NCBI GenBank assembly: GCA_948144175.1 | Contig: CANXME010001992.1 | Location: forward strand, 248,001-312,000 | Direction: 5' to 3' | DNA length: 64,000 nucleotides | DNA from: Closterium sp. NIES-65 | Taxonomy: Eukaryota > Streptophyta > Zygnematophyceae > Desmidiales > Closteriaceae | Shown here: positions 10,776 through 63,500 of the stretch, piece by piece | How positions within the stretch are numbered: the stretch's first letter is position 1 | Layout of the letters: each line of letters opens with the position of its first letter | Notes under the pieces: generated by a model | Database searches by the model: none | What the model saw: the letters and a program-made list of their open reading frames with translations, nothing else | Told to the model about the DNA's origin: nothing | Position numbers and translations under genes: made by a program

Positions 10776-13700
10776 ATGAGGCTGAGCGTGCGCGAGGGGG
10801 ACAAGCTGCGCCTGCATGCAGCAGGCGCGCTGGCGCAGAAGCGCCTGGCGCGCGGATTGAAGCTCAACTACCCCGAGGCGGTGGCTTTAATCGCCACGCA
10901 GGTGCTGGAGTTTATCCGCGATGGCAAGAGCGTTGCTGAGCTCATGGACCTCGGCAAGCAGCTTCTAGGAAGGTTCGTTTTCCTCCTGGTGTTGTGGGGG
11001 GGGGGGGTGAGATGGAGGAGGGGTGGGGGGACGCAGGAGTATACGGCGGGAAAAGGGTTTTGCATCGATTTTTGCCCGTGGGGGGATGCATGAATATTCA
11101 CCGAATTATCAGCCCAACCCCCCCTGGCCCCCCCTCCTCCTCTTCTCTCCCACCAGGCGCAATGTGCTGCCAGCAGTGCTAGCGCTACTGCACGTGGTGC
11201 AGGTGGAGGGAACCTTTTGAGTCTTCAGCTCACAAGCCCCTTTCCTCCCCTGTTTCACCCCTCCCTCTATACTCCCCCTCCACCCCACCAGGCGCAACGT
11301 GCTGCCAGCGGTGCCAGTGCTGCTGCACGAGGTGCCGATGGAGGGAACCTTTTGAGTCGACTCATAAGCCCCCCTTTCTTCCCTGTTTCCACTTCCCTCC
11401 CCTGTTTCACCTCTCCCTCCCCTTTTGCTCTTCCCCATCCATCCCTGCCCCCGTCCACCAGGCGCAACGTGCTGCCAGCGGTGCCAGTGCTGCTGCACGT
11501 GGTGCAGGTGGAGGGAACCTTTTGAGTCGTCTCACAAGCCCCCTTCTCTCCCCTGCTCTCCCATTCCCTCCCCTGTCTCTCCCCTCCATTCCCCAACCAT
11601 CCCCTTCCACCCCCCCACCAGGCGCAACGTGCTGCCAGCGGTGCCAGTGCTGCTAGACGTGGTGCAGGTGGAGGGAACCTTCGCGGATGGCACCAAGCTG
11701 GTGACGGTGCATCACCCCATCAGCCGTGAGGACGGAGACCTCTCCCTTGCGCTGCACGGCTCTTTTCTGCCAGGTCAGTTGTCTTTACGACTCTTTTCTC
11801 CCAGGTTAGGATGGGTATGGGCATGGGGGGATGGCACCAAGCTGGTGACGGTGCATCACCCCATCAGCCGCGAGGATGGTGATCTCTCCCTCGCTCTGCA
11901 CGGCTCCTTCCTGCCAGGTCACCTCTCCGTCCCTCTCCGTCCTCTCTCTCCCTCGCACTGCACAGTTCTTATCTGCCAGGTCATCTCTCCCACCCTCTCC
12001 TTCCCCTCTCTTCCTCTCGCTCTCCCTCTCCTTCTCCCTCTCCCTCCTACTGCCCTCTGCCACGAGCGAATCCCATGGAGTGTGAGCCGTCTCTTGCTTA
12101 TGCCTAGTGGGGATGGGGATGGGGATGGGGATGGGGATGGGGATGGGGATGGGGATGGGGATGGGGATGGGGATGGTGTTGGGGATGGGGATGGGGATGG
12201 GGATGGGGATGGTGTTGGGGATGGGGATGGGGATGGGGATGGGGATGGTGTTGGGGATGGGGATGGGGATGGGGATGGGGATGGTGTTGGGGATGGGGAT
12301 GGGGATGGGGATGGGGATGGGGATGGGGATGGGGATGGGGATGGGGATGGTGTTGGGGATGGGGATGGGGATGACACGAAGCTGGTGACGGTGCATCACC
12401 CCATCGCCATGCCTGTCACCACCACTGCTCTCAGTGGCTCCCGGGCACTGTCAAGACACCCCGGCAGGCCTGATCAAGTCAATCAAATCAATCATAATGA
12501 CTGCAAGTCAACTCGATTCTGACGTCACAGCATCATATTCCCCCCCTCCTCGCCCCTGCCTGTCCCACCACCCGCGCAAGACCTATTCACCACGCTTATT
12601 GCCACCTCTTGAATGGCTCTGCTGCATCAGGGCAGATCATAGTGGCAGAGACAAGCCTACTGCTTCTCAATGCTGGCAGGCTGGCTGTGCATCGAATGCT
12701 CCCAGGGATAATCCCCCATCCCATCTGCCATCTCCGTCCCCCTCTCCCCTCCTCGCCCCTGCCTGTCCCGCCAGTCCCCTCGCCTGATCTCGTCGTCATG
12801 CCTGACACCACCAGTCCCTTAAGTGGCTCTTCTGCTGTTCTGTCCAGCATGCCAGGGCAGATCATAGTGGTAGAGACGGGCCCGCTGCTTCTCAATGCTG
12901 GCAGGGCTGCTGCTGACCCTTCATCCCATCTCCCCACTCCCCCGCCCCTCTCCACCAGTCCCCTCGCCTGATCTCTTCGCCACACCTATTGCCACCACTG
13001 CTCTGAGTGGCTCTGCTGCGCCAGGGCAGATCATGGTGGCAGGGACAGGCCCGCTGCTGCTCAATGCCGGCAGGGCTGCTGTGCGGCTGAGCGTCAGCAG
13101 CCGCTGTGACAGGCCCATTCAGGTGAGGGACTTGGTGGTGCATGTGCATCGTATCGTATCATATCGTATGATATCGTATTGTATCGTATTATACCAAAAC
13201 ATGATGTATCGCATCAAATCGTATCATGCCGTCTCTCCTCGATCTGATCTTCATTACCCGTGAGTTCCACCTTTCAATCCTTAACCCTCAACCCCAAACT
13301 CTCAACCCCGAAACCCGCAACCCCAAACCTTCAACCCTTAACCCTCAACCCTCATACCCCCAGGTGGGCAGCCACTGCCACTTCGTGGAGACCAATCCGC
13401 TGCTCGTTTGAAAAAATACCTGCAATTGCCTAACCATCCATTCTAAAAACTCAATTCCCCTCTCATCAACCCACCCCCCCACAGGTGGGCAGCCACTATC
13501 ACTTCGTGGAGACCAATCCGCTGCTCTTCTTTGATCGCCAGCTGGCGTACGGTTACCACCTCAACATCCTCCCTGGCACCGCTGTGCGCTTCGAGGTGAG
13601 TCACTTTGTCCCAGATGCGACCCCATTACCGCGTTACTCCACAACTGTGTTACCATGCTGCGAATTGAACGACCACCTGTGATTTCTTTCTCTCGCCCTA

Positions 13701-16700
13701 GCATTTACTCTCTTTCCTTCTGGTGCTGTTGTGAACAGGCCCTTCCCGGCGACCTCACTCTCTCCCTTTCCTTCCCTCCCGATGACAGCCTGGCGAGACA
13801 AAGCAGGCGGTGCTGGTGGCGATGGGGGCCAAGAGGGTGATTTGAGGGGGCAACGCTGCTATACTGCCATGTGGTTTGGAGGATCCTTCCCTTACTCTCC
13901 TTTCCGTTATCTCTTTCCATCCCTTTCAACTCCTTCTATCTGCAGCCTGGCGAGACAAAGCAGGTGGTGCTGGTGGCGATGGGGGGCAAGAGGGTGATTC
14001 GAGGGGGCAACGGGATAGCGAGCGGGCCAGTGGACGAGAGCAGGGCGGCCGAGGTGGCTGCTAAGGCTGTGGCCATGGGATTCGGACATGTGCCTGAACC
14101 CAGCGCACTGTGAGTCCATGAGGGGTGGTGCTGATGCTGGTGCAGGCGGCAGTGAGTCTTATGGCATGGCTGCTAAAGCCGTGGCCATGGGATCCGGACA
14201 TGTGCCAGAGCCCAGCGCACTGTGAGTCAGAGTCAGTCAGTGGGGCCGGTTGAGAAGTGGTTTTGACTGGGGTGTTCGGAATGCCATGGAAGTTGGACGT
14301 GTTTAGCCCCACGGGGGTGGGAAAGGTTGAGACTTATTTTCAAGGCGCCTCAGCAATAGCAAGAGGGGAGTCTCAACCCTCCCCACTCCTTCTCTCTCCC
14401 CTCCTTCCTCCCTTTTTTTGTCTTCCCAGCAAGGGGGTTGTGGGGACGGACGAGGCCCTGACAGTGCGAGTGGAGCGGGAGCAATATGCCGACGTGTTTG
14501 GCCCCACGGTGGGGGACAGAGTACAGCTTCTTAAAAACACTTCAATAATAGCAGGCGAGCCTTAAGTCCCCTCACTCCCTCTCCTCCCCCGCCTCTCTCC
14601 CTCCCTCTTCCTTGCAGCAAGGGGGTTGTGGGGACGGACGAGGCCCTGACAGTGCGAGTGGAGCGGGAGCAATATGCCGACGTGTTTGGCCCCACAGAAG
14701 AGGACAGACAGAGTGCGGCCTGTGAAAAAGGGTCTTGTTTTTTTACTCTCTCCTCTCCCCCGCCTCGTGCATGCAGCAAGGGAGTGGTGGGGACGGACGA
14801 GGCTCTGACAGTGCGAGTGGAGAGGGAGCGGTACGCTGACGTGTTTGGCCCCACAGTGGGGGACAGAGTGCGGCTGGGGGATACTGCGCTGGTGGTGGAG
14901 GTGGAGAGGGATTTCACTGTGCTGGGCGATGAGTGCAAGTTCGGAGGGGGGAAGGTGCTAAGAGAAGGCATGGGGCAGGTGAGACCTGGGGCAGGGTAGG
15001 AGGGGGGGTGTGCGTGGGTTTCTAGCAGGGCTTGAGACGAGCAAGAGAGCGGGTTGTGGGTGTGTTTGGTCCCATGGTAGGGGACAGCGTGAGGGTGGGG
15101 GACAGAGTGCGGGTGGGAGACACAGCACTGGTGGTGGAGGTGGAGGGGGACTTCACTGTGCTGGGCGATGAGTGCAAGTTTGGAGGGGGGAAGGTGCTAA
15201 GAGAAGGCATGGGGCAGGTGAAACCTGGGCACTGGGGGGGCAGTGGGGGCAGTGAGTGAGACCTGGGGTGGGTGAGACCTGGGGCGGGTGAGACCTGAGG
15301 CAGGTGAAACCTGGAGAAGAAGGGCTCTGGGGTAGGGGGGGACTGGGGCAGGGTAGGAACGGAGTATGGGGGGACTGGTGCTGGGGCTGATGAGGAGTGG
15401 GGCAGGAGGGGCCGGAGGGGGAGGAGCGGTTTGAGGTGTGTGAGAAGTAGGGGGCAGGGGGGGCATGAGTGCCTGAGCTCTGTACTTCCCATGTCCTTTC
15501 CCTCCTTGCTCTATTCATCAGTGAGGGCTATGCTCTTCCCTCTCGTGCCTCTCCTTTCAAGGTCCCTTCTCTCTTTATCCCTCCCCTCCCTTCCACGTTT
15601 TCTCCTTGCTTCCAGGCGACGGGAGTGAAGGCAGAGGACGCCCTGGACGTGATTATAACGAATGCGCTTATAGTAGATCACTGGGGCATAGTGAAGGCGG
15701 ACGTGGGCATCAAGGGCACGCGCATTGTGGGCATCGGCAAGGGCGGCAACCCGGACGTCATGAATGGGGTGGACGAGAATATGGTGGTGGGGGTGAGTAT
15801 TAGTGGTGTATAAGCATGTCATGCGGATTAAGGGGATTATGGGTATTGTGGGAATCAGCAAGGGTGGCGATCCGGACGTCATGAATGGCGTGGATGAGAA
15901 CATGGTGGTGGGGGTGAGTATTCTGGCGTTCTGGCACACCAGCCACATGTCAAGGCCATCGTGGGCATCAAGGGCACACGCTTTGCGGGCATCGGCAAGG
16001 GTGGCAACCTAGATGTGATGGATGGGGTGGATGAGAACATGGTGGTGGGGGTGAGTATCAAAAGGGAAAAAGATGTTGGGGTGAGGTGAGGGCTGGTTGG
16101 AGAGTTGGCATGTTGTCAACACAAAAAAAGCCCCCATCGACTTTCTCTGTCTCACTCGTGCCTGTCCCCATGCCATCCCTCGTGCCCCATGCAGGTGACG
16201 ACCGAGGTGATAGCAGGCGAGGGGCTGATTCTCACAGCAGGAGGCATCGACACGCACGTGCACTTCATCTGCCCTCAACTGGCGGACGAGGCCATCTGCA
16301 GTGGTGAGTGGTGGGTGGTGGTTGATGCGGCAGGCTACAGCCACCATCAACTACGCCTTTCTCGCCCCAACTGTGCCTCTGTTTCCAAATTCTTTGCATA
16401 CAGGTCTGACGACGCTAGTGGGAGGCGGTACAGGGCCAGCACACGGCACTCTGGCCACCACACACACACCATCACCCGATGACATGGCGCTCATGCTGCA
16501 TCCCATACTTCCCCTTCTCTCCCCACCTGGTGTGCCTTCATGCAGGTCTGACGACGCTAGTGGGAGGCGGTACAGGGCCGGCACACGGCACTCTGGCCAC
16601 CACACACACACCATCACCCGATGCCATGGCGCTCATGCTGCATCCCATACTTCCCCTTCTCTCCCCACCTGGTGTGCCTTCATGCAGGTCTGACGACGCT

Positions 16701-19700
16701 AGTGGGAGGCGGTACAGGGCCGGCACACGGCACTCTGGCCACCACACACACACCATCACCCGATGCCATGGCGCTCATGCTGCATCCCATACTTCCCCTT
16801 CTCTCCCCACCTGGTGTGCCTTCATGCAGGTCTGACGACGCTAGTGGGAGGCGGTACAGGGTTGGCACACGGCACGCTAGCCACCACATGCACGCCACCC
16901 CCCGACGCAATGGGACTCATGCTGTCACTTCCACCAGACCAGTACCACCACCACCACAGCATTATCACCTGCATCTTTCTCTTCCCTTCTCTTCCCACTG
17001 TGCATGCATGCAGGTCTGACGACGTTAGTGGGAGGAGGAACGGGGCCGGCACACGGCACGCTAGCCACCACATGCACGCCATCCCCTGACGCCATGGGAT
17101 TCATGCTGCATCCCATGCTTCCCTTTCTCTCCCCACCTGGTGTGCCTTCACACAGGTCTGACAACACTGGTGGGAGGAGGCACAGGCCCGGCACACGGCA
17201 CTCTTGCAACCACATGTACACCATCCCCCGACGCCATGACGCTCATGCTTCAGGCTACGGACAACATGCCTCTCAACTTTGGGTTCACAGGGAAGGTAAG
17301 TGAGAGTGAGTGAGTGTGTGTGTCTGTCCCCATCAGGTTCCCCCCATCAGGTTCCCCCAATCAGGTTCCCCCCATCAGGTTCCCCCCATCAGGTTCCCCC
17401 CATCAGGTTCCCCCCATCAGCTTCCCCCCATCAGCTTCCCCCCATCAGGTTCCCCCCATCAGGTTCCCCCCATCAAGTTCCCCCCATCAGGTTCCCCCCA
17501 TCAGGTTCCCCATCAGGTTCCCCATCAGGTTCCCCCCATCAGGTTCTCCCCATCAGGTTCCCCCCATCAAGTTCCCCCCATCAAGTTTCCCCCATCAGCT
17601 TCCCCCCATCAGCTTCCCCCCATCAGCTTCCCCCCATCAGCTTCCCCCCATCAGCTTCCCCCCATCAGGTTCTCCCCATCAGGTTCCCCCCATCAAGTTC
17701 CCCCCATCAAGTTCCCCCCATCAGCTTCCCCCCATCAGGTTCCCCCCATCAGGTTCCCCCCATCAGGTTCCCCCCATCAGCTTCCCCCCATCAGGTTTCC
17801 CCCATCAGGTTCCCCATCAGGTTCCCCACACCATCAGGTTCCCCATCAGGTTCCCCACACCATCAGGTTCCCCATCAAATTCCCCATCAGTTTCCCCATC
17901 AGGTTTCCCATCAGGTTCCCATCAGGTTCCCCATGAGGTTCCCCATGAGGTTCCCCACCCCAGGGCAACACATTTAGTCCCGAGGGTCTGTTGGACATCA
18001 TCAAAGCAGGAGCCATCGGGCTGAAGCTGCATGAGGACTGGGGCACCACCCCTGCTGCCATTGACACACGTGTCTGGGCGTGGCAGAGCAGCATGACGTG
18101 TGTGTGTAAAGAGACTTGGTTTTTATGCCAACCCCCGCTCCCCTCTCCCCACTCTCTCCAGGGCAACACGTCCAGCCCCGAGGGCCTGCTAGACATCATC
18201 AGAGCGGGGGCAATTGGGTTGAAGCTGCATGAGGACTGGGGCACCACGCCTGCTGCCATTGACTCGTGCCTGGGCGTGGCAGAGCAGCATGACGTGCAGG
18301 TGACAAAAAGTAGAGCTCCGGATCTGATATCAACACCTCTCCCTACCGTTTCCCCACCCCTCCAGGGTAACACATCTAGCCCCGAGGGTCTGATAGACAT
18401 CATTAAGGCGGGAGCCATCGGGTTGAAGCTGCATGAGGACTGGGGCACCACCCCCGCTGCCATTGACACGTGCCTGGGCGTGGCAGAGGAGCATGACGTG
18501 CAGGTGACGATTCACACGGACACACTCAACGAGTCCGCGTGTGTGGAGCAGACCATTGCTGCCTTCAAGAACCGCACCATCCACACCTACCACAGGTGAG
18601 GGGGGATGGGGGGAGAGAAGGGGGTGGGGGGCCGCGGGGCTGGTTTGGAGGGAGGGAGGGGTTGCCTGCGTGGAGCAGACCATCGCTGCCTTCAAGAACC
18701 GCATCATCCACACCTACCACAGGTGAGCGGGGATGGGATGGGGTGGGGGAGAGGGGGAGGGGGGAGTGGGACAGTTTGACAGTTTGGCCTTTATCTTCAA
18801 CGCTCTACCCTTCATATCTTCTCTCCCTTTGGGCTGCCTTTACCACGCAGTGAGGGAGCAAGGGGTGGGTATGTATGCACCCAACATGTTTGAAGTAGTG
18901 TTTTGAGACGTCTCAAAACACTACCTCGCAGTGAGGGAGCAAGGGGTGGGTGGGTATGCACCCAACATCATCCGCATCTGTGGGAAGAGCAACGTGTGCA
19001 CCTCAACTCCCTCCTCCTCCTCCTCCTCCTCCTCCTCCTCCTACCTTCCTTCCCTCAACCTTCCTTCCTCCCTCCCATCGCACTGTTTATGTCTGTGCTT
19101 TGCAGTGAGGAAGCAGGGGGCGGCCGTGCACCGGACAACATCAGCATCTGTGGCGAGAGCAACGTGCTGCCTCTCTCCTCTAGCCTTCAATCCAGCAATT
19201 CTCCTCCTTACTTCTCCACTTCTTCTATCCCTATCACTGTGTGTATCTTGCAGTGAGGGAGCAGGGGGCGGCCATGCGCCGGACATCATCAGCATCTGTG
19301 GGGAGAGCAACGTGCTTCCCTCCTCCACCAACCCCACTCGCCCCTTCACCACCAACACCATTGACGAGCATCTCGATATGCTGGTATGCACTTTGTTATC
19401 ATAACGGGGATGTGGGTTGTTTTATAACAAGTATATCAACAGGGGTATGCTGCCCTTCTCCACCACCCCTTCACCACCAACACCATCGACGAACACCTTG
19501 ACATGCTGGTATGCGTGCTTGCAGCGACTATAACGAGAGTCTTCTGTAGTACCTAGGTACATGCTGCCCTCCTCCACCAACCCCACTCGCCCCTTCACCA
19601 CCAACACCATCGACGAACACCTCGACATGCTGGTGGGTGCCTTGAATTCCAACGAGGACGTACTGTAACGCCTGTGCCACCAATGGTCTGCCAGATGTTG

Positions 19701-22700
19701 TGGGTGCGGTGCACACACACACATCATGCTCCCTCCCCCAGATGCTCTGTCACCACCTCGACAGCATCAACAGGGAGGACGTGGCATTCGCCAAGTCCTG
19801 CATTCCCCCTCAGTTGCCCCTCATTCCCCCGCTTCCCTTCCCCCCTGTACCCCTCCCCACTCCTTCCCCAGATGGTGTGTCACCACCTGGACAGCAACAA
19901 CAGGGAGGACGTGGCATTCGCCGAGTCCCGCATTCGAGCCGAGACCATCGCAGCAGAGGACATACTGCATGACATGGGGGCCATAAGCATGATGTCATCG
20001 GATTCCCAAGCCATGGGTCGCATAGGGGAGGTCATCACCCGCACCTGGCAAACCGCGCATAAAATGAAGGTTCAGCGCGGGCCTCTCAACGAGGATAAGG
20101 ATTCTGAGGGGTATGGGTTTGGCACCGCGCCGAATGATAACTTCCGGGTGAAGAGATTTGTGGCAAAGTATACGATCAACCCGGCGATCGCGCACGGGTT
20201 TTCGCACGTGGTGGGGTCGGTGGAGGTGGGGAAGATGGCGGATCTGGTGCTGTGGCGGCCGGCGTTCTTTGGTGCGAAGCCGGAGATTGTGGTGAAGGGG
20301 GGAGCGATTGCTTGGGCGCAGATGGGTGATGCCAATGCCAGCATTCCCACTCCAGAGCCGGTGAGTTACTTGCTGCAGATATCATCGCACTCTGTGCTGG
20401 TGCATTTTGAGTCCACTCACAACGCACCGCAAAGCCAGAGATTGTGGCGAAGGGCGGCGCGATCGCCTGGGTGCAGATGGGTGATGCCAATGCCAGCATC
20501 CCCGCCCTTTTGAGGCGCCTCAAAAGGTGATGCCAATGCCAGCATTCCCACCCTTTTGAGGCGCCTCAAAAGGTGATGCCAATGCCAGCATCCCCACCCC
20601 CGAACCGGTGAGTGTGCCTTCAAATGTCAGCTGCAGATTGTTGATGCAAGGTAGATAATGAGTCGTCTGAACAGACACCTCAATTCATGAATGCGCTCCT
20701 CCCCTCCCCACTTTTTACCCTACCTGCCCAACGTCCCACCTCCACCACATCCCACCCTTCCCCCCAACACCCACGTCCCAACTCCCCTCCCCGCAGGTCA
20801 TCATGCGACCACAGTTTGCAGCAAGTGGCAAGGCGGTGGGTGGGCGCTGCTTGGCGTTCGTCAGCCAGGTGAGTTGTGGGGAGGGAAGGGAGGAGAGATT
20901 GTAGCCGACGGCAATGTTGTGAGTGTAGGCAGGTGCACTGTTGTTGAGGGGGGAGGTGTGATTGTAGCAGATGGCAAAGGTATCAAGGAGGATATGGTTC
21001 ACAACAGAGCCTTTCACAACATTCCCCCTGCCAATCCATTCCCCCTCTTCATTCCTCCTGCCCCTCCTCATCTCCCCACCCACACCAGCTGTGCCATGAG
21101 GCAGGGTCGGCAGCCAATCTGAGCGCCATGAAGACACTCACGCCCGTGCCGTGCACAACTGTTGCAACCTCTGCAAGGAGGATATGATCCACAGCTGGAG
21201 GATATGATCCACAGCTGGTGGATATGATCCACAGCTGGAGGATATGATCCACAGCTGGAGGATATGATCCACAGCTGGAGGATATGATCCACAGCTGGAG
21301 GATATGATCCACAGCTGGAGGATATGATCCACAGCTGGAGGATATGATCCACAGCTGGAGGATATGATCCACAGCCGGAGGATATGATCCACAGCTGGAG
21401 GATATGATCCACAGCTGGAGGATATGATCCACAGCTGGAGGATATGATCCACAGCTGGAGGATATGATCCACAGCTGGAGGATATGATCCACAGCTGGAG
21501 GATATGATCCACAGCTGGAGGATATGATCCACAGCTGGAGGATATGATCCACAGCTGGAGGATATGATCCACAGCTGGAGGATATGATCCACAGCTGGAG
21601 GATATGATCCACAGCTGGAGGATATGATCCACAGCTGGAGGATATGATCCACAGCTGGTGGATGTGATCCACAGCTGGTGGATGTGATCCACAGCTGGAG
21701 GATATGATCCACAGCTGGAGGATATGATCCACAGCTGGAGGATATGATCCACAGCTGGTGGATATGATCCACAGCTGGTGGATATGATCCACAGCTGGAG
21801 GATATGATCCACAGCTGGAGGATATGATCCACAGCTGGAGGATATGATCCACAGCTGGAGGATATGATCCACAGCTGGAGGATATGATCCACAGCTGGAG
21901 GATATGATCCACAGCTGGAGGATATGATCCACAGCTGGAGGATATGATCCACAGCTGGAGGATATGATCCACAGCTGGAGGATATGATCCACAGCTGGAG
22001 GATATGATCCACAGCTGGAGGATATGATCCACAGCTGGTGGATGTGATCCACAGCTGGTGGATGTGATCCACAGCTGGAGGATATGATCCACAGCTGGAG
22101 GATATGATCCACAGCTGGAGGATATGATCCACAGCTGGTGGATATGATCCACAGCTGGTGGATATGATCCACAGCTGGAGGATATGATCCACAGCTGGAG
22201 GATATGATCCACAGCTGGAGGATATGATCCACAGCTGGAGGATATGATCCACAGCTGGAGGATATGATCCACAATGAGCCCCCCTCCCAATTCCCCTCAA
22301 CTTTTCCCCACACCAGATGTGCCACGAGGCAGGGTCAGCAGCCAGTCTGGGTCTCACCAAAACATTGACTCCCGTGCACAACTGCCGCAACCTACGCAAG
22401 GAGGACATGATCCACAACGGAGCCCTCCCTACCTCCCCGTCCCCAATCCCCCTCCTCATTCCCCCTCTCCATCTCCCATCTCCCCTCTCCCCTCTCCCCT
22501 CTCCCCACCCGGACCAGCTATGCCACGAGTCTCGGTCAGCAGCCAATCTGGGTCTCTCCAAGATGCTCACTCCCGTGCACAACTGCTGCAACCTCTGCAG
22601 GGAGGATATGATTCACAATGTGACCCCCTCTCAATACCTCCCCCCACCCCTCTCCCTCCCCGCTTCCCACACCAGCTGTGCCACGAGACGGGCTCAGCAG

Positions 22701-23235: not shown

Positions 23236-26200
23236 ATGGAGCGTCAAGGGCAGCAGGGGAAGCAGGAGGAGAGGCGGCAGGGGGCAGCAACAGCAACCCC
23301 GCCCCTGCCATCGGAGTGGGCGGTGTGGCAGCTGCTGGACTCGCTGCTGCCTGCTGGTAGCTTCGCGCACTCGCTGGGGCTGGAAGCAGCAGCTCGAGCA
23401 GGCTTCCTTGGTGCCGCTGGCAGAGGGGCAGGGAGAGGATTAGGTGGTGCAGGGAGAGGAGCAGGTGGGGCAGGGGGGGTTGGCAGTATGGGTGACAGGG
23501 GCGAGGGAAGGAGTGATATGGTAACGTCGCTGCGAGTGTTTGTGCTCACGGCCGTGCATGCCAACGCTGCTCTGCTGCTGCCCTTTGTTGCCACTGCGCA
23601 TTGGATCACGAGTGCTAGCATGAGTGCCTCGGCGTGTGGGAATGCTTCAGCAGCTGCCGTGGCAGCACCAGCAGCAGGAGTAGCATCAGCAGGAGCTGGC
23701 AGCAGGGACACACCAGAGGAAGGTACAGCAGCAGGATCTGCACCAGCGGGCATAGCAGTGGCAGGGTCAACAGCTGCAGGATTAGGAGACAACCATTTTT
23801 CTTTTGACGAGCCAGTTCTTCAGCCAATAGTGGAGCGACACGTGGCACGTGGCGCATTTGGTGATGCCCTGGCAGCTGCTGACAGCTGTCTCAACGCCAT
23901 GCTGGCGAATGACGTGGCACGCAAGGTATGTAGGGGGTGGGGTGCTTATGGGGGGAGGGAGGTGGTATGACTTGGGGCATGGGGGGATAATCATGGCAGG
24001 TTATGGCATCATGTGCTGTGCTGCGCATACTGTGAATGGCATGGCAGATGGCGAATGTATCATACGGCATACACCATGCCCACACGGCGGCATACCATGC
24101 CTCCCTTCCATTTCCAACTCTCATGCCCCACCGCGTGCCATCGTCCCCCCAGGTCTCGCTCTCTCAGGGCTCTGCCTTGATTGCGCCGCCACTCACTGAC
24201 TTCCCTCAACCCCTCTCCCCTGCTCCCCTACTCGCCGCCTCAACCCCTCTCCCCTGCTCCCCTACTCGCCGCCTCAACCCCTCTCCCCTGCTCCCCTACT
24301 CGCCGCCTCAACCCCTCTCCCCTGCTCCCCTACTCGCCGCCTCAACCCCTCTCCCCTGCTCCCCTACTCGCCGCCTCAACCCCTCTCCCCTGCTCCCCTA
24401 CTCGCCGCCTCAACCCCTCTCCCCTGCTCCCCTACTCGCCGCCTCAACCCCTCTCCCCTGCTCCCCTACTCGCCGCCTCAACCCCTCTCCCCTGCTCCCC
24501 TACTCGCCGCCTCAACCCCTCTCCCCTGCTCCCCTACTCGCCGCCTCAACCCCTCTCCCCTGCTCCCCTACTCGCCGCCTCAACCGCTCTCCCCTGCTCC
24601 CCTACTCGCCGCCTCAACCCTCTCCCCTGCTCCCCTACTCGCCGCCTCAACCGCTCTCCCCTGCTCCCCTACTCGCCGCCTCAACCCTCTCCCCTGCTCC
24701 CCTACTCGCCGCCTCAACCCCTCTCCCCTGCTCCCCTACTCGCCGCCTCAACCCCTCTCCCCTGCTTCCCTACTCGCCGCCTCAACCCCTCTCCCCTGCT
24801 CCCCTACTCGCCGCCTCAACCCTCTCCCCTGCTCCCCTACTCGCCGCCTCAACCGCTCTCCCCTGCTCCCCTACTCGCCGCCTCAACCCCTCTCCCCTGC
24901 TCCCCTACTCGCCGCCTCAACCCCTCTCCCCTGCTTCCCTACTCGCCGCCTCAACCCCTCTCCCCTGCTCCCCTACTCGCCGCCTCAACCCCTCTCCCCT
25001 GCTCCCCTACTCGCCGCCTCAACCCCTCTCCCCTGCTTCCCTACTCGCCGCCTCAACCCCTCTCCCCTGCTCCCCTACTCGCCACCTCAACCCCTCTCCC
25101 CTGCTCCCCTACTCGCCGCCTCAACCCCTCTCCCCTGCTCCCCTACTCGCCGCCTCAACCCCTCTCCCCTGCTCCCCTACTCGCCGCCTCAACCCCTCTC
25201 CCCTGCTCCCCTACTCGCCGCCTCAACCCCTCTCCCCTGCTTCCCTACTCGCCGCCTCAACCCCTCTCCCCTGCTCCCCTACTCGCCGCCTCAACCCTTC
25301 TCCCCTGCTCCCCTACTCGCCGCCTCAACCCCTCTCCCCTGCTCCCCTACTCGCCGCCTCAACCCCTCTCCCCTGCTCCCCTACTCGCCGCCTCAACCCC
25401 TCTCCCCTGCTTCCCTACTCGCCGCCTCAACCCCTCTCCCCTGCTCCCCTACTCGCCGCCTCAACCCCTCTCCCCTGCTCCCCTACTCGCCGCCTCAACC
25501 CCTCTCCCCTGCTCCCCTACTCGCCGCCTCAACCCCTCTCCCCTGCTTCCCTACTCGCCGCCTCAACCCCTCTCCCCTGCTCCCCTACTCGCCGCCTCAA
25601 CCCCTCTCCCCTGCTCCCCTACTCGCCGCCTCAACCCCTCTCCCCTGCTCCCCTACTCGCCGCCTCAACCCCTCTCCCCTGCTCCCCTACTCGCCGCCTC
25701 AACCCCTCTCCCCTGCTCCCCTACTCGCCGCCTCAACCCCTCTCCCCTGCTCCCCTACTCGCCGCCTCAACCCCTCTCCCCTGCTTCCCTACTCGCCGCC
25801 TCAACCCCTCTCCCCTGCTCCCCTACTCGCCGCCTCAACCCCTCTCCCCTGCTCCCCTACTCGCCGCCTCAACCCCTCTCCCCTGCTCCCCTACTCGCCG
25901 CCTCAACCCCTCTCCCCTGCTCCCCTACTCGCCGCCTCAACCCCTCTCCCCTGCTCGCACACGTGCTGCTGTGCTCCTATTCCCCACCACATCGCCTCCC
26001 AGGTCTCCCTCTCTCAGGGCTCTGCCTTGCTTCGGGTCGCCTCCACAGTCTTCCCAGAGGCCTCTCCCTTGCTCTCGACCTATCGCACGAGGACACGTCA
26101 GCAGGGTCAACCAATTCAACCCAGTCAACCAAGTCAACCGTCTATAAGCACCTCATCTCCTCGTGCGTACGGCCATCACGCGGTGATCTTCGGAGCTCTC

Positions 26201-28759: not shown

Positions 28760-28861
28760 GCACTTCCTGCACTAACTTGTGTTCCATTCTAATGTTGGAA
28801 ACTTCTAGGACAAGGAAGATGATAAATGTAGTCTTTCTGTTTGCTGTGTGATCATGCAACT

Positions 28862-29188: not shown

Positions 29189-29190
29189 CT

Positions 29191-49903: not shown

Positions 49904-49908
49904 CCTGG

Positions 49909-50569: not shown

Positions 50570-50574
50570 GACCC

Positions 50575-51156: not shown

Positions 51157-51161
51157 GACCC

Positions 51162-54100: not shown

Positions 54101-54396
54101 ACTACAGCGTCTTACAAGGTCTTAGCACTCTTGTTCAGGCTAAAGTGCGCACGCTCAGTGGTCGGTAAGTGGCGACGCACAGCAAGACGGAGAGCAGCAT
54201 CGCGTGTGGCCCACTGTGAGCGAACAGTGCTGCCAGCAGTAGCAGGCGGGGCAGGAGAGGCACCAGAGGTGAGATCGAACAGGGAGAGTCCGTCTGCCCT
54301 ATCGCACTGTAGGAACAGCTGGAGGTCATCGACCAAGACCTCAAAGTCAACAGCACGACCCTGAGCATCAAAGGTAAGGACACTAGGGGTAGCCAT
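51162..54396 (-). pseudogene. Copia-B Gag, protease and integrase, broken
   Basis: Minus strand from ATG 54394-54396 (MATPSVLTFDAQGRAVDFEV). Gag is interrupted by TAA at about 54112 (Tyr in Copia-A) and a frameshift in an 11-C run near 53926-53936. Then Gly-rich tract, knuckle, protease (TLDSGASRSFF, about 52860), pre-integrase and integrase. The second catalytic Asp is lost (HSHRGGEF for HSDRGGEF, near 52000), and a frameshift follows at AAAPIFCGR (about 51830). The frame resumes at TSPTLQWTGKVGDASAFRVWG and runs through a (GGAEP/GGAES)n linker to the miniature element. Confidence 0.88.
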
Positions 54397-54479
54397 GACT
54401 GCAGTGGCTTAGCAGGGAGTGATCTCACCAGTCCGAGTAAGTAGGGCTGGGGCGCGCCGGTAGGAACAGTAGCGGCTCG

Positions 54480-55390: not shown

Positions 55391-55462
55391 GCTCCGGTCA
55401 GAAAAAAAAAATCAGTGGTGGGCCAAAGGAAGCGTTCCCACTAGGGAACCTGCTCTATACCA

Positions 55463-55587
55463 TGTGAAGAAATGAGGAATGAATGAACTAGCACAAGGTT
55501 GGGTACAAGTAGGAGAGCCTAGGAAACTGTACCCCATAGTGTCTACCCCACTATAGCCTAGACAAGCTATATGATATAAGTTTGACA
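55463..55587 (-). repeat. Copia-B 5' LTR
   Basis: 125 bp; adjacent primer site TGGTATAGAGCAGG at 55449-55462 on the minus strand; right target duplication GCGCT at 55588-55592. Confidence 0.93.
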
Positions 55588-55592
55588 GCGCT

Positions 55593-56394
55593 CGCTCTCA
55601 TGCATGTATCCCACCTGCTCGCATAACGCCAGAAATCCGCTCCTGTGGTCCTGGACGGAACTGAGTTGGCGCCAAGTGCGGAGCTTCTGACGCGCCGCGA
55701 TCGAAGCCGCAATTGGCTCGAAACGAGCGCGCAGACTTGCGCACCACGCGTCCCACGTGCGATATTAGGGCACCTCCACGAAATACGACGGCGCCCAGGG
55801 TCCGTTTTGTCCTTCCCGTGTCGATAGAGTCGCGTAGTCTACCGGCTTCGTGACGATGACACGCCACTAGTCCATGGCGGGTCCTCGCAGCAATGACACG
55901 GCGTAGCGAATCGTCGCCGTATCCTCCGAGACGTAATTCGCGTCGAAGAAAACGTTCAACGTGAATAGCCACGCCTGAACGGTAGGACCACCCCGTTGAC
56001 TCGGGTCAAAACACGGCGGACGCTGCGGCTTCAGCGGCATCGGCGACGGTAGAGTCGATTCGCCGGCCGGCACGGAAATCAAAACTCGATGCTGGTTCCG
56101 GGCCGCATTCGTCGCGTCGGGGTGTGTCGTGCCGTGGTCGTCGTCTCCATCGTGGCGGACGACGCCATCACTAGCCGCGCTCGCGGGTTGCCCCACACTT
56201 CCATGTTGCGATGTCTGTGGTGTGGGCTATATCGGAGTGCCAGATGCTAGGGATTGTGTTCATGCAAGGTCATTCTGCAGGGAGGTGCGTTCCGCCGTTA
56301 ATGCCGCGATTTCTTCAGAGCTTTCGTGCAGTTGTTGCAGCAGCTCGTCCAGGCGGTCCTGCGTGAGGCTGGTGACGTCGATGCGTTCGGCCAT
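55593..56394 (-). pseudogene. Gypsy-2 Gag N-terminal part
   Basis: Minus strand from ATG 56392-56394 (MAERIDVTSLTQDRLDELLQQ). A helical N-terminus is followed by the Gag domain ([31 protein letters not shown]) also seen in Gypsy-1. In-frame stops: TGA and TAG near 56230-56270, TAG at 55867, TAA near 55765. Copia-B then interrupts at RIDRY; the frame continues at 40386. Confidence 0.85.
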
Positions 56395-56561
56395 TCCGAA
56401 GGGCGTCGGCTCGTCTTAGTCTAGGCGCTGTCGTGGCTGCACGCGTTTACGAGAGAACCGAGGACAGCGGCTCTTAGGGGCTAAGGTGCGTGAGTCCCTT
56501 CGAGTGAAAAATCAAAAGTTGATTTCCTGGGGTGCGGAGATGCGCGGTCAGAAAAGAAAGA

Positions 56562-56575
56562 GGCTCTGAATACCA
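56562..56575 (-). other. Gypsy-2 primer binding site
   Basis: Minus-strand TGGTATTCAGAGCC lies three bases from the 5' LTR. It matches the tRNA-Met site TGGTATCAGAGC apart from one extra T. Confidence 0.75.
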
Positions 56576-56577
56576 AG

Positions 56578-56904
56578 TGTAACGGGTGCAATGGATCTAA
56601 GTAGCGAGAATTCCATTAAGGTGTCAAATGAGTACAAAATGTGAGCGAAGGCATGAGCGAACATTTATACGCGAAACATGCAAACGGTAACGCAGTGCGT
56701 GCGAGCTAGCTAGTGCTACGCTGGCAGCGAGGTTCGGGCTAGTCCCGAAGCATAGGCCGACACGGCCGGCCCAGCAGTGCGAGGTTTGGTGAAACAGTGC
56801 GCGCGAAGTCGGCGAAGCCCCGTTAGCAGTAACGGGCGAACAACGGCTGCTGCTGTATGCGATGTTGCAGGGCACGCTAAGGAATATCGAGAAAATTCCT
56901 TACA
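56578..56904 (-). repeat. Gypsy-2 5' LTR
   Basis: 327 bp; about 19 differences from 28862-29188. Followed by target duplication CAACT at 56905-56909. Confidence 0.93.
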
Positions 56905-56909
56905 CAACT

Positions 56910-57645
56910 GCTTTGTTGCCAGTCCTCATCGCAAGTTGACGCGATACCGTTCTTGACCAGTTCTAGCTGTGAGCCGACAAGTTCGGGTATGAAGCAAAGA
57001 AGAGCCACCTGCCAAAAAAAAGAATCGCCGCTAAAGTATCGCCACTGACAGGGCTTCCGGCCCGTTCGGCTCGCCATGCGGCTGTGTTTGGCGCCACGAC
57101 ACTTTCGTGACCAACTAAGCGAAGTCGCCTGGTTGTGACGGCTCAATTTCCGACGCGCCAAGCGAAAACGGACACAACTGCCCGCGCGAGCGAAGGGAAT
57201 CAAGGTCTCCAGTTCTCGCCCAAACCCAACCAGACTAGCCGGTGAGCCACATCCAGACCAGGTCCGAACCGAGACGGTATTGCGACAAAAACCAGTGAGG
57301 CGACCTCGAGCCAGCCGAATCTGTCCCCCAATTACCAAACCAGAATTGTCACGGCGTCGCGTTCCGCACCAACCGGGGCGCTTGATTGTTTTCCTGCTTC
57401 AATATTATTCCCATCTTCCCGAAGCCGACTCGATTTTTGGGATCCCCCGCCCACCTGTTTGCTCCTGGCAAATCCAGGCAAGTGAGATCAAACAAAGCAC
57501 CAGGGGGACAGTGATTATTCATATTCCCATCAAACCACAGAACTGCGTCAAACCCTCGGTGTCTGTTTGATCCGAGTTAATATTCTGTTTACCTCAGTTC
57601 TTTCCCTCAAGAGACGGACACTCGTCGAGGAACATTCCATCCGCC
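56910..57645 (+). other. Upstream region of Cys-rich protein gene
   Basis: 736 bp of moderate-GC DNA without a recognised gene. It should hold the promoter and 5' UTR of the gene at 57646. No TATA box stands out. Confidence 0.4.
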
Positions 57646-59353
57646 ATGGCCGTCTCTCGCGCTGTGCTCCTGCTCCTCGTCCTCGTCCCACTGGCAGTCG
57701 CCCAACCCTACCCAAAATGTCCACTCACGGGGAAACTCCCCAAGCCCGCTAAGGTCATCCACACGCGATGCCCCGCAGCCGCGAAAATGTCGTGCTGCCA
57801 GGACTGCTTCGACCTGAACTACGCGATTCGGGCGTTAGCAACGAACGTTACCTCTGTCGTCGACGCGAACACGGGCGGCATGGGAACGCAACTGGGCGTT
57901 CCGGCGGACGTGTGCGGGTTGTTCAAGGGGTCGGAAACGTGTGAATTGCTCGTCGAGCAGCTCGTGTGCGCTGTCAGCTGCAACCCCGGTGAGTTTTGAG
58001 TCGACTCAAAAGTCACCCCTGTGAGGTGCGGTGTGAAAGACTCTCATCGCTCTCCTAGTAGGCCCCAGGATTTTCCGCCGGATTTTCTGCTTCTTGCTGA
58101 CGCTCCGACCCCGATTCCTCTTTCACTCACAGTTACGCTCTACGGTGTTTCTCCTACCACCCCTCCTCCTTCCCCTATCCCTCTTCTTTCCCCTCTTTCC
58201 TTCCCCCACTGTCCCCCACCTCTTCCCGCTCGTCCGCGTCAGACTCGGGCAACTACTTCAGCAAGGCGACCGGCGCACCCATCCTCAACATCTGCACGGC
58301 CTTCGCGCAGCAGGTGTACGACGCGTGCGGCACCCTCTCGTGTAAGCTCTCGTCCGACCCTTCCGAGTCCCATCGTTCATTCCTAACCTGACACGGGTCC
58401 CGAACCTGGTATGGCGCAGCACGTGTACGACACGTGCGGCACCCTCTCGTTTACCATCCCCAATTCATCCCGCTTTGCAATCCAGTGGATTCAACACTCA
58501 TATCGCACCCTACCCTGGGTTATCCCAGCAGCTGCGTGATTTGCGCCATATGCCGCGCTCCTAATCCCATCTGTCATAGACGAGGGGATGCTGACGATCG
58601 TGCCGTTGCGTACTATATCCCCTCCCGTTCCTTTATTTCAGTGGGCGAACTCAAAGTGGGTGATTTCCTCTTCACGCCCGCCGATCTGATTCAGTCCGTG
58701 CTCGTCCCCGTTATTAGCTCCGCCGTTCCCAACTTCAACGCCAGCATCAATGTAAGCAAACGTTGCAAAGAAACACTTGCATGCGTTTCGCCATTGTTCC
58801 CGACCGCTTCTAACCAAGCTAACATCCTCCCGCTTACTTTTGAACGTCCGTCACACCTGTCCAAAAACCAATGCTGCCCCCCCCCCTCTCCCCTCCCTTC
58901 GGCGCAAACCCTTTTCAGGACGTGGGCTGCTACGGCGGACCAGAGCAGGTTCCCTCCACCCCGCTCTGCTGCGATCCGCTCAACGTCCCCCGCCAATGCC
59001 CCAAGGGCGCGGTCAACCTCACCGGCTCCGCGGGTATCGTCGGGCGCAAACCCGCCGCCGCCATCTGCGCGGACTTCCCCTACTCCGCCACCACCGTCCC
59101 GTTCAAGCGCGCGCCCCTCCCCGCCACCGCCGCGCCGGAGCTTCCGCCCGCGACGACCGGACCTCCCCGCGGAGGACAGCCCAAGCCGAACACGCCTGCC
59201 GACGCCCCCGCTACAACCGCCAACACCGGCAAGCCCAGCGATCTCCCCGCGACCGCCATGGCTCCCCCTGGTCCCAAGGGCGCTGCGTCGAATCTGGTTT
59301 CCGCTGCTCTGGTGCTGCTCGCCACTGCCGTGGCTGCCGCTGTGGCTCTGTAA
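57646..59353 (+). CDS. Secreted Cys-rich protein, probable GPI anchor, folate-receptor-like (4 exons)
   Basis: Exons 57646-57988, 58243-58341, 58642-58751 and 58919-59353; GT-AG introns and matching phases give 328 residues plus TAA. Residues 1-19 form a signal peptide (MAVSRAVLLLLVLVPLAVA). The ectodomain has many cysteines: KCPLTGKL, SCCQDCFDL, CGLFKGSETCELL, LVCAVSCNP, ICTAFAQQVYDAC, CYGG, LCCDPLN. The SCC...C..L...LVCA.SC.P...I.IC..F...VY.AC spacing resembles the folate/riboflavin-binding receptor fold; NPC1-type N-terminal domains are an alternative. A Pro/Ala/Thr-rich stalk precedes a hydrophobic C-terminus (LVSAALVLLATAVAAAVAL) typical of GPI signals. The ligand is unknown. Intron 1 begins with a TTTTGAG palindrome and intron 2 has a relic of the exon 2 end. 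Confidence 0.8.
57994..58011. repeat. Perfect 18-bp palindrome in intron 1
   Basis: TTTTGAGTCGACTCAAAA begins five bases after the exon 1 donor of the Cys-rich protein gene. Same pattern as the urease-intron palindromes, with TCGA at the centre. Confidence 0.95.
58413..58450 (+). repeat. Relic of exon 2 end in the Cys-rich gene
   Basis: GCGCAGCACGTGTACGACAC and the following bases (AQHVYDTCGTLS) copy the end of exon 2 (AQQVYDACGTLS), 70-110 bp downstream in intron 2. The donor GT is changed to TT here. Confidence 0.85.
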
Positions 59354-60368
59354 AGAGTTACGAAGCTGCTAATAAAGAGGAAGGATAGCGTAGAAGGTCA
59401 CGGCGATGGAGCGGCAGATTCAGGGGGGCAGCTCAGCCCAGTAGCGGAAGAAAGGTACCGCTATAAATATACTGCAGTAACCCACACGTAGGTTTGATAG
59501 GCTGCTGCTGTTGATCACTAACAGCACTATTGTTTAGCAAAAGCCTTACATATATGAACAAGGTTCAGTCAACTCTGAGTTCCCGGTCAGCACATTCTGA
59601 AATGTTCCTCCATTTCAAGGACAAGGGACAGCACATTTCTTAGCTCTGCCAATTCGATTAGAACCCACGGCTGTACCAACATAGCAAATCAATAAGCAGC
59701 ATCCATGTGCTAGCACAATCTGTTAGCACAGATTTTACTTGCCATAACCATCTAGAGGGCCGCATGCTGATACAGCTGAAGAATTTATGGTAAGCACAAT
59801 ATTTGAAGGCATTAGCTTAGCATAGAGCTACAAGCACAGTGCTGGAAGAGTTTTGCAGTGAGCTGCTACTTGCTAGATACCGTGCCTGGACACCAGAAAT
59901 TTTCCCTAGATAATTGCTCAAAGCATTGAAACTCCTACTGGTAGATACCGTACAGTACCAGGACACCATAATTGATAACATGTATGATTTCTCAAGACAT
60001 TGAACAAGTGGATAGCTGACGAGTTGAAGGGGGCTGTACAGAAGAGAAGAGCGAGGGCTGGAATGGCTGCACACGACACCGCTTGGGTTGAGAGGAGAAG
60101 TGCGAATAGGGTGGACAGAGTTGAAGGACGTGTAGCCAAGGGAGGAATGTGACAGGCGACTATGTGCACATGTATCTAGCTGCTTCAGGCTGCTTTTCTG
60201 GCTGCTTCTCAAGCATCCAGTACCATCACGAAGCATCGCAGCAGCTCACGAAGCTGCTCAAGTGACACCTCTTGATGCCCAGGGCCAGGGCCAGGAAAAC
60301 CGCTGCGAATTGGGCCCAAGAGGCAAACTCCTGACGTCCGACCCCAGGGTGAATAACCCTGGCCACAC
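59354..60368. other. Convergent 3' intergenic region
   Basis: About 1 kb between the ends of a plus-strand and a minus-strand gene. It is less GC-rich, with short repeats of GTAGATACCGT (59930s) and CTAGATACCGT (59870s). It presumably holds both 3' UTRs; no gene recognised. Confidence 0.4.
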
Positions 60369-60527
60369 TCAGCGAGGGCGAATTCCCCTGGGCCCTCTCT
60401 TGCTACCCCTCTTTCCTGATGTGCCCGCGCCAGAATATCCCCCGTGGCCGGCCCTCCCTCCGCCCACATAGTGAAAATCCTCATCGAAATCTGTCCAAGA
60501 GTAGGTAGTCTGGGAAGACGATGCAGA

Positions 60528-60563
<36 letters not shown>

Positions 60564-63500
60564 AATGTTGCTGTTGCTGCTTCTGGTGGTGTTGCTTCGT
60601 GGAGGAGCAGCATTCGCCTCCATGAGAGCATCCTTGTCCGGGACATAGCCTGCAGGGGAAGGACCAATGACACGAATGTAGGATAGAGTCGTGTTTTGAG
60701 GTCGACACAGAACACGAAGCATTCGCCTCCATGAGTGCATCCCTCTCCGGGACATAACCTGCAGGGGAAGGATGAAAGCCACGGCCACACAGGCAGGTTC
60801 TGGGTCAGTGATGCTTGAGTCTAAGCCCCTGAACATTTCCTTTCCTCTTGTTTCCCTTACCGTTCCCTTCCCACGCAGCACTCACCAGAAAACACACTCA
60901 TTCATCCAGCAACCCTGGTGTGTAGGAAAGAACACAAGTATCATGACAAGCCACGATAGCAACCAAGACAACACAAGACAACACTCACCTACCATGTACA
61001 CCCACACAACCAATAAAGACACACAGCCAACATGCATGCACTCACCAAGCTTGGCAGCCCAGGAATACGTTTGCTCCACTGCCACCTCTCGCCCCACGCC
61101 CTTCCCACTCCCCCCACCGCCGTTCCTTCCATAGCTGAACTCATACCGCGTGCTAGTACCGCCCTCCATCCAGTCAAACCCCTCATCATCGCTCCCAGCC
61201 ATCCAGTACAGGTCCCTCTCCCGCTCCCTCCCCCCTAGGACCACGCCTGGACCTGCACTCCCCGCACCAAACATGCTCTCCCCCATTTTCTCCCCCATAG
61301 CGCCCATTCTGCTGCTGGAATTAGCCGGGGAGGAAGCAGAGGAGGAAGAAGAGGAAGAGGAAGAGGAGGAGGAGGTGCCGTTGCGGTCGTAAAGCCGGCG
61401 GTCAATGGTGACGTGGAAGGACTCGTCACGCGTGCGGACTTCCACCTGAGGGCGCTTGCCATGCAGCAAGGCATCCACACTCCTGTCCGTCTGTTGCGGA
61501 ACGAGAAGGGCAAAGAGCAAGGGAACAGGGATTATGGGCAAGGAGAGAGTCGATGGTGACATGGAACGAATTCTCCCGAGTGCACACTTCGACAAGGGCA
61601 CACACCGTGCAACAATGCGTCCACACTTTTTTTGAGTCGATTCAAAATCGGTCTGGAACGAGTCGGGAAGATGGGCGAGAGAGGATTATTTAGTACATCT
61701 TGATCAGCACGGGAAAGGTGGGCGGCGCTGTGAAAGTGTGTCACGGCACGGGCAGTAGCTCGTGGCTTTCCATTCGAGTCAACGCACACCTACTTTAGAG
61801 GCACCACGAGAACTACACACCTGGTGGGCGACCCAGAAGTGCCTCTCGCGCATCTCAATGAGCACAGGGAACGTGGGCGGTGCTGCATGCATGTAATTAA
61901 TATCGAGCCAACCCAAAGCACGACTCCTATAGTGGCCTTTCACAATGACACACCTGATGGGCCACCCAGAAGTGCCTCTCGCGCATCTCAATGAGCACAG
62001 GGAACGTGGGCAGTGCTGCATGCATGTAATTTATATCGAGCCAACCCAAAGCACGACTCCTATAGTGGCCTTTCACAATGACACACCTGATGGGCCACCC
62101 AGAAGTGCCTCTCGCGCATCTCAATGAGCACAGGGAATGTGGGCGGCGCTGTTCTCTCCAGCACACTTTTCTGTGTGCCTCGCGACCTCGCCTCCTCGTC
62201 TCCCAAGGTCACTGTTTGCACCCCGCCCACCTGGACAGTTGAGAAGAAGTGAGGGAGATGGGTGGAGAGGAAAGTGAGGGGAGTGGCACAAAGGAGGCGA
62301 GGGGAGGACGGAGGGGCACAGCGAGGGCAGAGAGGGGAATGTGGGCGGCGCTGTTCTCTCCAGCACACTCTTCTGTGTGCCTCGTGACCTCGCCTCCTCG
62401 TCTCCCAGCGTCACCGTCTGCACCCCGCCCACCTGGAAAGAGGGAAAGAAGGAGAGGCATAATGGACGGGAATGAGGGGAACTAAGTCCCACATCCTCAC
62501 CACCAGGTCGCAGAGCGTGGGGTTCTTGATGAGGTTCTCCAGCAGCTGCCCGTGAGCTGTGCCCACCAGCATCACCACTCGAGTCACATAGGGTTACCAG
62601 GTTACAGAATAGGATCCCAGCCTCACCAGATCACAGAGCGTGGGGTTCTTGATGAGGTTCTCCAGCAGCTGCCCGTGAGCTGTGCCCACCAGCATCACCA
62701 CTCGAGTCACATAGGGTTACCAGGTTACAGAATAGGATCCCAGCCTCACCAGATCACAGAGCGTGGGGTTCTTGATGAGATTCTCCAGCAGCTGCCCATG
62801 AGCCGTGCCCACCAGCATCACTCCCCTCTCCGCTATCGTCCTGCATGCCAGCGCCTCCGCCTCCGTCCCAATCTCGTCCACTATCACCACCTGTAGGCAG
62901 AGGCGAGCAGTCACAGACGGGAAAGAGGTGTGAGTTTGAGATGTCCCATAAGGCTATCGTGACTCGTCCTGCATGCCAGCGCCTCCGCCTCTGTCCCAAT
63001 GTCGTCCACTATCACCACCTGTGGGCAGGGGCAGACAGGCACAGGCAGGGAAGCGGTGCGAGTTTGAGGATTCTCAGAATGCCATGGTCCTGCATGCGAA
63101 GGCCTCCGCCATCACCCTGCCCGGCCAAGGTGCCACACAAGGGACACAAGCACTGGGTTTCGGCAGTCATGTGTACGCGCTCACCAGCCAAGGTGCCACA
63201 CAAGGGACACAAGCACCTCCTCACCCATCTCACCTCCTCACCCATCTCACCTCCTCACCCATCTCACCTCCTCACCCATCTCACCTCCTCACACATCTCA
63301 CCTCCTCACCCATCTCACCTCCTCACCCATCTCATCTCCTCACCCATCTCATCTCCTCACCCATCTCACCTGCGGCATGTGGTTCTCCACGGCTTCCACC
63401 ATCACGCGGTGCTGCAGCGCCGGATCCGGCACCTGCATGCGCCGCGCGCCGCCAATCGCGGGGTGAGGCACGTCCCCGTCCCCGCCGATCTCGTTGCTCG

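Follow-up and report, generated by a model that had tools for sequence, protein, structure and literature searches.

The 64,000 nucleotides of Closterium sp. NIES-65 analysed here (assembly GCA_948144175.1, contig CANXME010001992.1, positions 248,001 to 312,000; referred to as the window) hold a plant-type urease gene at about 10.8-20.9 kb, a gene at about 57.6 kb and a minus-strand gene at 60-64 kb, and all three genes contain copies of a short palindrome built from the arm TTTTGAG, four centre bases and the complementary arm CTCAAAA. The Zygnematophyceae, which include Closterium, are the algae held closest to land plants. The distribution and structure of this palindrome family, its coupling to the duplication of target sequence including pieces of exons, and the repair process that might have produced it are addressed in the following.

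The palindrome in the window

All nine copies listed in the original prediction were recovered at their positions (Table 1). With up to two mismatches allowed, the pattern matches the window eight times, while 100 dinucleotide shuffles gave a mean of 0.02 and at most one match; equally, four of the five palindromes reaching an arm score of 8 or more in the window are of this family. As the copies at 11215, 11350 and 11520, and likewise those at 20508 and 20554, are amplified units, seven independent loci are counted. The copy at 11215-11234 can be recognised mainly by its position in the repeat unit shared with 11350 and 11520. Two copies extend beyond the limits first listed, 20405-20422 to 20400-20429 with mismatches (GGTGC...GCACC) and 57994-58011 to 57988-58017, the latter being flanked by ACCCCGGTGAG and ACCCCTGTGAG.

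The urease exons were set by eye, with an open frame in 13 of the 15 chosen stretches and the other two running into the intron as cut, and on that model the urease palindromes are intronic. In the gene at about 57.6 kb, the palindrome directly follows the apparent first 5' splice site (by eye), and two palindromes lie in the minus-strand gene. Five of the seven window events appear, as judged by eye, to duplicate a splice site, which is a 3' splice site at 11130-11774, 18841-18968 and 60609-60783 (minus strand) and a 5' splice site at 20274-20503, where the site is found in the continuation 20572-20613, and at 57983-58025, where the repeat is just 11 bp with one mismatch (10/11) and stays below both thresholds of the flanking-repeat tests. 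The remaining two events (20508/20554 and 61630) sit within relics.

Seven of ten window copies lie within 6 nt of the edge of a duplicate (0.42 on average under the null; seven was not reached in any of 5000 permutations), a count in which array members are included and array edges are partly set by masking of the palindrome. In a comparison without masking, the duplicates at 11215, 18895, 20400, 20508/20554 and 60690 reach up to the palindrome, or to about 3 nt from it, on one side at least. The proposed location at duplication breakpoints is upheld to this extent and does not apply to 57994 and 61630, near which the unmasked comparison does not end.

Table 1. Palindrome copies and associated duplications in the window
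Position	Strand	Feature	Remark
11130..11774	+	Array of units of 3' splice site, 5' part of urease exon 2 and palindrome, followed by complete exon 2 (about 11621-11774)	Boundaries by eye
about 11157-11214		Relic, truncated copy of urease exon 2	Closed by 11215 palindrome
11215..11234		Strongly decayed palindrome TTTTGAGTCTTCAGCTCACA, first unit of urease intron-1 array	Ends truncated urease exon 2 copy
11350..11367		Decayed palindrome, centre TCGA, second unit of urease intron-1 array	
11520..11537		Decayed palindrome, third unit of urease intron-1 array	
18841..18968	+	Direct duplication around 18895 palindrome, 44/47 bases	Spans 3' splice site (by eye)
18895..18924		30-bp perfect palindrome, centre ACGT	Left-arm sequence runs on (GTTTGAA), one side only
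20274..20503	+	Urease exon-end duplication (20274-20348 / 20429-20503)	Continuation with 5' splice site 20572-20613
20400..20429		Decayed 30-bp palindrome, centre TCCA	Right duplication copy starts at 20429
20506..20527		22-bp perfect palindrome, centre GCGC	Between 28-bp direct repeats
20552..20573		22-bp perfect palindrome, centre GCGC, second unit	
57988..58017		30-bp palindrome, one mismatched pair, centre TCGA	Directly 3' of 5' splice site (by eye)
60609..60783	-	Duplication of 3' splice site and exon 5' part around 60690 palindrome	Splice site by eye
60690..60716		Additional decayed palindrome, absent from the original list, in minus-strand gene	Between copies 60609-60674 / 60718-60783
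61630..61647		Palindrome with one mismatch inside exon relic	Flanking duplication not detected; few exon bases missing (by eye)

A genome-wide family with self-complementary centres

In the Closterium assembly of 874,075,685 bases, TTTTGAG-NCGN-CTCAAAA occurs at 24,964 exact places and the reversed control pattern at 0, and with any four bases admitted in the centre, 30,327 places are found versus 4 for the control. A degenerate pattern with variable centre, proposed from the window alone, is thus borne out by a genome-wide search. For closer comparison, 20 stretches of 10 kb (200 kb in total, with labels such as L141:8971) were fetched, which were picked for holding copies of the palindrome. 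Of 78 palindromes with an arm score of at least 9 in the 264 kb of fetched stretches and window, 64 are members of this family.

The observation that the centre varies by locus and nevertheless stays self-complementary applies to all four perfect copies of the window, to 52 of the 55 perfect-arm copies in the fetched 200 kb (array members included) and to 50 of 50 listed genome places (50 of the 24,964, with overlap with the fetched sample). Among the 55 centres, TCGA was found 26 times, ACGT 13 times, GCGC 10 times and AATT 3 times, and the three others (TTGA, AATC and ACAT), which are not self-complementary, are each one change away from a centre of these types. In unrelated DNA, on the other hand, only 30 of the 131 pattern matches listed for viral and prokaryote contigs (11 viral and at least 120 listed prokaryote matches, used solely as chance control) have a self-complementary centre, and 82 of the 131 are without palindromic extension.

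Beyond the core, the arm sequence tends to be characteristic of the class and to be mirrored, with about AGGTGAC for TCGA and GAGTGAC for one AATT copy, and long-arm copies of the ACGT class are mirrored over 26/26 nt at L152:2603 and 24/25 nt at L143:5291 with differing sequences. After array members had been dropped, 39 copies were kept for the comparison of arms. In the 22 TCGA copies among them, agreement is higher within than between loci at each position from -1 to -7, for example 0.82 versus 0.53 at position -2 and 0.50 versus 0.27 at position -5. Six long-arm loci, one of them AATT, show an agreement of 0.83 within the locus and 0.44 of 14 positions between loci, whereby only the between-locus difference is informative and the within-locus figure is no test, because a match of the arms at 10 or more of 14 positions had been the ground for picking these loci. 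Within a single insert, the end points of the two arms are independent of each other and lie 0-7 nt or further beyond the core; some copies such as L136:3844 combine one long with one short arm. At 14 of 28 junctions of the TCGA and AATT classes, the agreement with the arm consensus continues over one further base or more (mean 0.75 versus an estimated 0.33 or so), and at 52 duplication edges no strong base preference was seen by eye in base counts taken without a statistic.

Copies of the core can also be found amplified. At L143:6185-6448 and L143:7344-7500, core-based tandem arrays consist of 24-bp units of the GCGC class and of 20-bp units GACTTTTGAGGCAC..., respectively, which suggests that the palindrome can seed satellites.

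Insertion coupled with target duplication

To assess flanking sequence, isolated copies were defined by a core with at most one mismatch and no other copy within 150 bp, which reduced 94 copies to 46. Clean ungapped direct repeats of 11-71 bp flank 26 of these 46 and 5 of 60 random sites, in agreement with the predicted enrichment at duplication junctions. In the 26 cases, the insert between the repeats measures 19-43 nt, and the repeats are identical in seven, including 60 bp at L140:9299, 28 bp at L140:6805 and 23 bp at L142:3337. Equally, the top gapped alignment falls within 28 nt for 25/46 copies versus 152/1500 random sites and within 10 nt for 19/46 versus 88/1500. The gapped alignment adds eight copies, so that 34 of 46 show a duplication by either method, a union which carries no null rate. 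A first, looser test with array members included had given 44/58 versus 18/107 random sites; the stricter test on isolated copies is the one relied on.

Four palindromes of other sequence (L147:5472, L150:8997, L136:808 and L136:1208) have no flanking repeat. The first of these, L147:5472-5515, is a near-perfect palindrome of 44 bp unrelated to the family. The arm TTTTGAG is without a partner in 44 of 217 cases, and flanking repeats were observed for 5 of 42 testable unpartnered arms, all five in one 20-bp satellite (L143).

Most directly, two loci can be compared with paralogous sequence. L141:8971 has a relative in L138 (84% over 70 bp of the right flank) in which the target is present once and the palindrome is lacking, and downstream exon copies on the same contig as L140:9299 equally possess a single target and no palindrome, although this second case is weaker, as the similarity left of the target covers just a few bases. 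As the paralogues of both loci have neither, the palindrome and the second target copy seem to have arrived together. Insertion coupled with duplication is supported directly.

Other repeats and retroelements

The best 120 of 8000 scored matches of the copia polyprotein in the window carry Closterium names (NIES-53, -54, -64, -65, Yama58-4 and Naga37s-1). At 714-2648, an open reading frame with an RVT_1 reverse-transcriptase domain can be read as LINE-like (long interspersed nuclear element) and displays no link to the palindrome. The claim that no palindrome lies inside the retrotransposons agrees with the fetched DNA, in which this was the case for 0 of 88 copies, a weak test since only 9.1 kb of the fetched DNA resembles the retrotransposons of the window.

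Partial exon duplications without an intervening palindrome are plentiful at 10600-20880 and 57600-64000 of the window. Within the urease gene, an intron harbours a minisatellite of CATCAGGTTCCCC-like units at 17300-17950, and an inverted repeat GGTTGAGACT...AGTCTCAACC whose loop measures about 30 nt is located at 14326-14373 inside an exon-relic junction, which is possibly a related, older or longer form of the palindrome. Near the urease 3' end, a tandem array with a 20-bp period extends over about 1.1 kb (21177-22273) with no exact or near copy of the palindrome inside, and long repetitive open frames rich in proline and serine, derived from a minisatellite, follow at 24036-26147, with a GC skew of about -0.7 at 24-26 kb.

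Proposed mechanism

With a confidence somewhat short of even, we favour a repair-coupled insertion family, for which the term patch palindrome might be used, whereby during the repair of a staggered break both ends would be given the same short arm and the self-complementary tips would anneal. Such a process would start from a staggered double-strand break with single-stranded ends, which would probably arise from one nick in each strand at a distance of about 10-150 nt. Both 3' ends would be extended with the same short arm, composed of the outer arm, TTTTGAG and NN', which might be copied from one kind of template with variable start positions. The two new 3' tips, with their four self-complementary bases (TCGA, ACGT, GCGC or AATT), could then anneal mutually, and fill-in would give rise to the arrangement of target, perfect palindrome and target. 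Where the duplicated stretch spans a splice site, one copy would keep the gene working and the other would consequently be left in the intron as an exon relic; the units may expand later into tandem arrays.

Staggered breaks, template, tip annealing and the effect on splicing are inferred. That both ends receive the same arm and are joined by annealing of their tips is suggested because the arms tend to match within and differ between loci and because the centres are self-complementary. Break repair rather than the action of a transposase is indicated since the lengths of the duplication and the ends of the insert are variable and bases are occasionally lost. In a more specific version of this proposal, the arm would be supplied by a reverse transcriptase or polymerase, which extends both 3' ends identically on a dedicated small template while the self-complementary tips hold the ends together; the genome would use this template-directed patching of breaks or be parasitised by it. 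We consider this version rather doubtful.

Several observations weigh against a repair-coupled insertion. Twenty-one of 30 filtered local duplicate pairs in the window have no palindrome between the copies, so that the idea of the palindrome making all relics finds no support; hidden palindromes were equally not found in 34 hand-listed junctions without one (best p 0.119). No flanking duplication was detected for 12 of the 46 isolated copies, among them 57994 and 61630 of the window, and null rates of 6-10% in the duplication tests are not negligible, the genome being rich in tandem repeats. Besides the window, the sample covers four contigs and was selected for the presence of copies. The excess of microhomology at the junctions is modest, and outer bases deviating from the consensus are mirrored in 10/30 cases for TCGA, 4/10 for ACGT, 4/10 for GCGC and 5/6 for AATT, that is, they are more often one-sided in three of the four classes, which derives partly from arm ends. 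Neither a template nor an enzyme nor evidence of expression was found in this analysis; an Rfam scan of the window gave no match at the gathering threshold, and ARAGORN with the bacterial code returned none for the window. Finally, the capture of ready-made double-stranded palindromes would lead to nearly the same products.

Alternative explanations

Such capture is the main rival. A nuclear pool of short double-stranded palindromic DNA, its ends trimmed, would be ligated into staggered breaks by end joining, with the duplication resulting from fill-in of the overhangs. Variable insert ends and duplication lengths, the apparent lack of a strong target motif and the 61630 copy with its lost bases are all readily accommodated, and we regard this explanation as possible, if on the unlikely side; it leaves unaccounted for, however, both the origin of the pool and the reason why it should hold perfect palindromes with arms matching within but differing between loci, and trimmed single arms with a flanking duplication were seen only in the one satellite. 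Palindromes destabilise DNA. With the palindrome present first, its hairpin might have provoked tandem duplication of the surroundings by replication slippage, and copies do indeed form tandem arrays with units of about 24-53 bp. A single palindrome between two target copies, the paralogues of two loci with one target and no palindrome, and the four palindromes of other sequence lacking duplications make this order of events improbable. 

A LINE-type enzyme acting on a short hairpin RNA by target-primed reverse transcription would create target duplications of variable length, as are known from LINEs and short interspersed nuclear elements (SINEs), and the RVT_1 open reading frame of the window could be counted in favour of such a route. 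But neither end of the insert is constant, in particular there is no constant 3' end, no tail and, by eye, no strong edge motif were seen, and the loop of a hairpin RNA has no reason to stay self-complementary, so that this route is judged to be quite improbable. For the same reason, a looped hairpin is unlikely to be the mobile form, and a hairpin as the active form is unproven. A dispersed inverted-repeat family between flanking direct repeats also recalls a minimal DNA transposon resembling a miniature inverted-repeat transposable element (MITE), moved by a transposase with unusual target duplications. Cut-and-paste elements have a fixed duplication length and fixed terminal inverted-repeat ends, whereas the duplications observed here range from 11 to 71 bp in the 26 clean cases and inserts of 19-43 nt have variable ends; a classical tiny transposon is consequently unsupported and a MITE-like origin very improbable. 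An artefact of sequencing or assembly (adapter, hairpin adapter or misassembly) would suit a palindromic sequence of very high copy number, but with several sequence classes, graded decay such as from TCGA to TTGA, and locus-specific duplications and arms, we hardly give it any credence. 

The original prediction had considered either a tiny mobile or self-templating hairpin or the scar of a fold-back repair that makes the relics. A genome-wide family located between duplications, two empty paralogous sites and five of seven events that appear to duplicate a splice site speak for its general direction; local fold-back, a classical tiny transposon and the generation of all relics could not be maintained.

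Relation to known systems

Bacterial REP/BIME palindromes (repetitive extragenic palindromes/bacterial interspersed mosaic elements) of 20-40 nt occur in many copies and are similar in being short palindromes of high copy number, although they are bacterial and have no long target duplications. In twin prime editing, an engineered system, the 3' ends at staggered nicks are extended with complementary flaps that anneal. The process proposed here equally extends both 3' ends with subsequent annealing of the flaps, with the difference that both flaps would carry the same self-complementary tip. Patch repair and duplications at staggered breaks were reportedly described by Vaughn and Bennetzen in 2014 and by Schiml in 2016.

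In rice, tandem duplications have been attributed to the repair of adjacent nicks, with a share that falls between 125 and 200 bp (PMC7971508), and fill-in at 3' overhangs is reported as a source of tandem duplications (PMC8355091). What patch-mediated repair shares with the 34 isolated copies above is direct duplication over lengths from tens of base pairs up to about 150 bp, while the parts of these reports drawn on here describe no fixed family-specific palindrome at the junction (PMC7971508; PMC7407515), in contrast to the constant palindrome family in Closterium. Patch repair fits the duplication, but not the constant insert; the constant palindrome is what is new. Fold-back inverted insertions in yeast, most of about 5-34 bp and made during end joining, are likewise very short, but there the sequence beside the break is copied (PMC11724301); with a core that is nearly invariant genome-wide, local fold-back as the source of the palindrome is rejected.

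From the organelle DNA of Volvox carteri, short palindromes with family resemblance have been described that are dispersed over introns and intergenic regions and regarded as selfish; they occur mainly in mitochondria and plastids and are called inert in the nucleus in the sections cited (PMC2670323). In contrast, the 874 Mb assembly of Closterium contains some 25,000 exact copies, flanked in many cases by duplications, and the copies of the window reside in introns of a multi-exon urease gene beside retrotransposons, not in organelle DNA; 'target site' and 'direct repeat' each appear 0 times in the text of PMC2670323. DNA-transposon-like introners share repeated insertion into genes with target duplications and an effect on intron structure, but are flanked by repeats of 3-9 bp according to the portion of the source used (PMC9860276), whereas duplications of 11-71 bp around inserts of 19-43 nt are observed here by a search directed at repeats of 9 bp or more. 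Inserts of this size would be unusually short if spliced as introns themselves.

As each departs in at least one tested feature, membership in transposons, LINEs/SINEs, introners or Volvox-type repeats is not accepted. No family considered accounts for palindrome inserts of 19-43 bp in tens of thousands of copies, often placed between long target duplications of variable length and with arms that tend to agree within a locus and differ from locus to locus. In the open-licence literature of PubMed Central, as judged by titles and the start of abstracts and with subscription literature lying outside the search, no recognisable description was encountered, and 'palindrom' occurs 0 times in the Closterium genome paper (PMC10407611).

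Implications

Several Closterium strains have assemblies according to the genome paper (PMC10407611), so that a comparison of presence and absence of individual copies among strains is feasible. If the ends of breaks are indeed patched from a template, ends would be joined in a new way, and the palindromes would be scars of it that can be read directly. Twin prime editing would in that case have a counterpart in nature that has left tens of thousands of such scars, and the growth of introns and the accumulation of exon pieces would have a new route.

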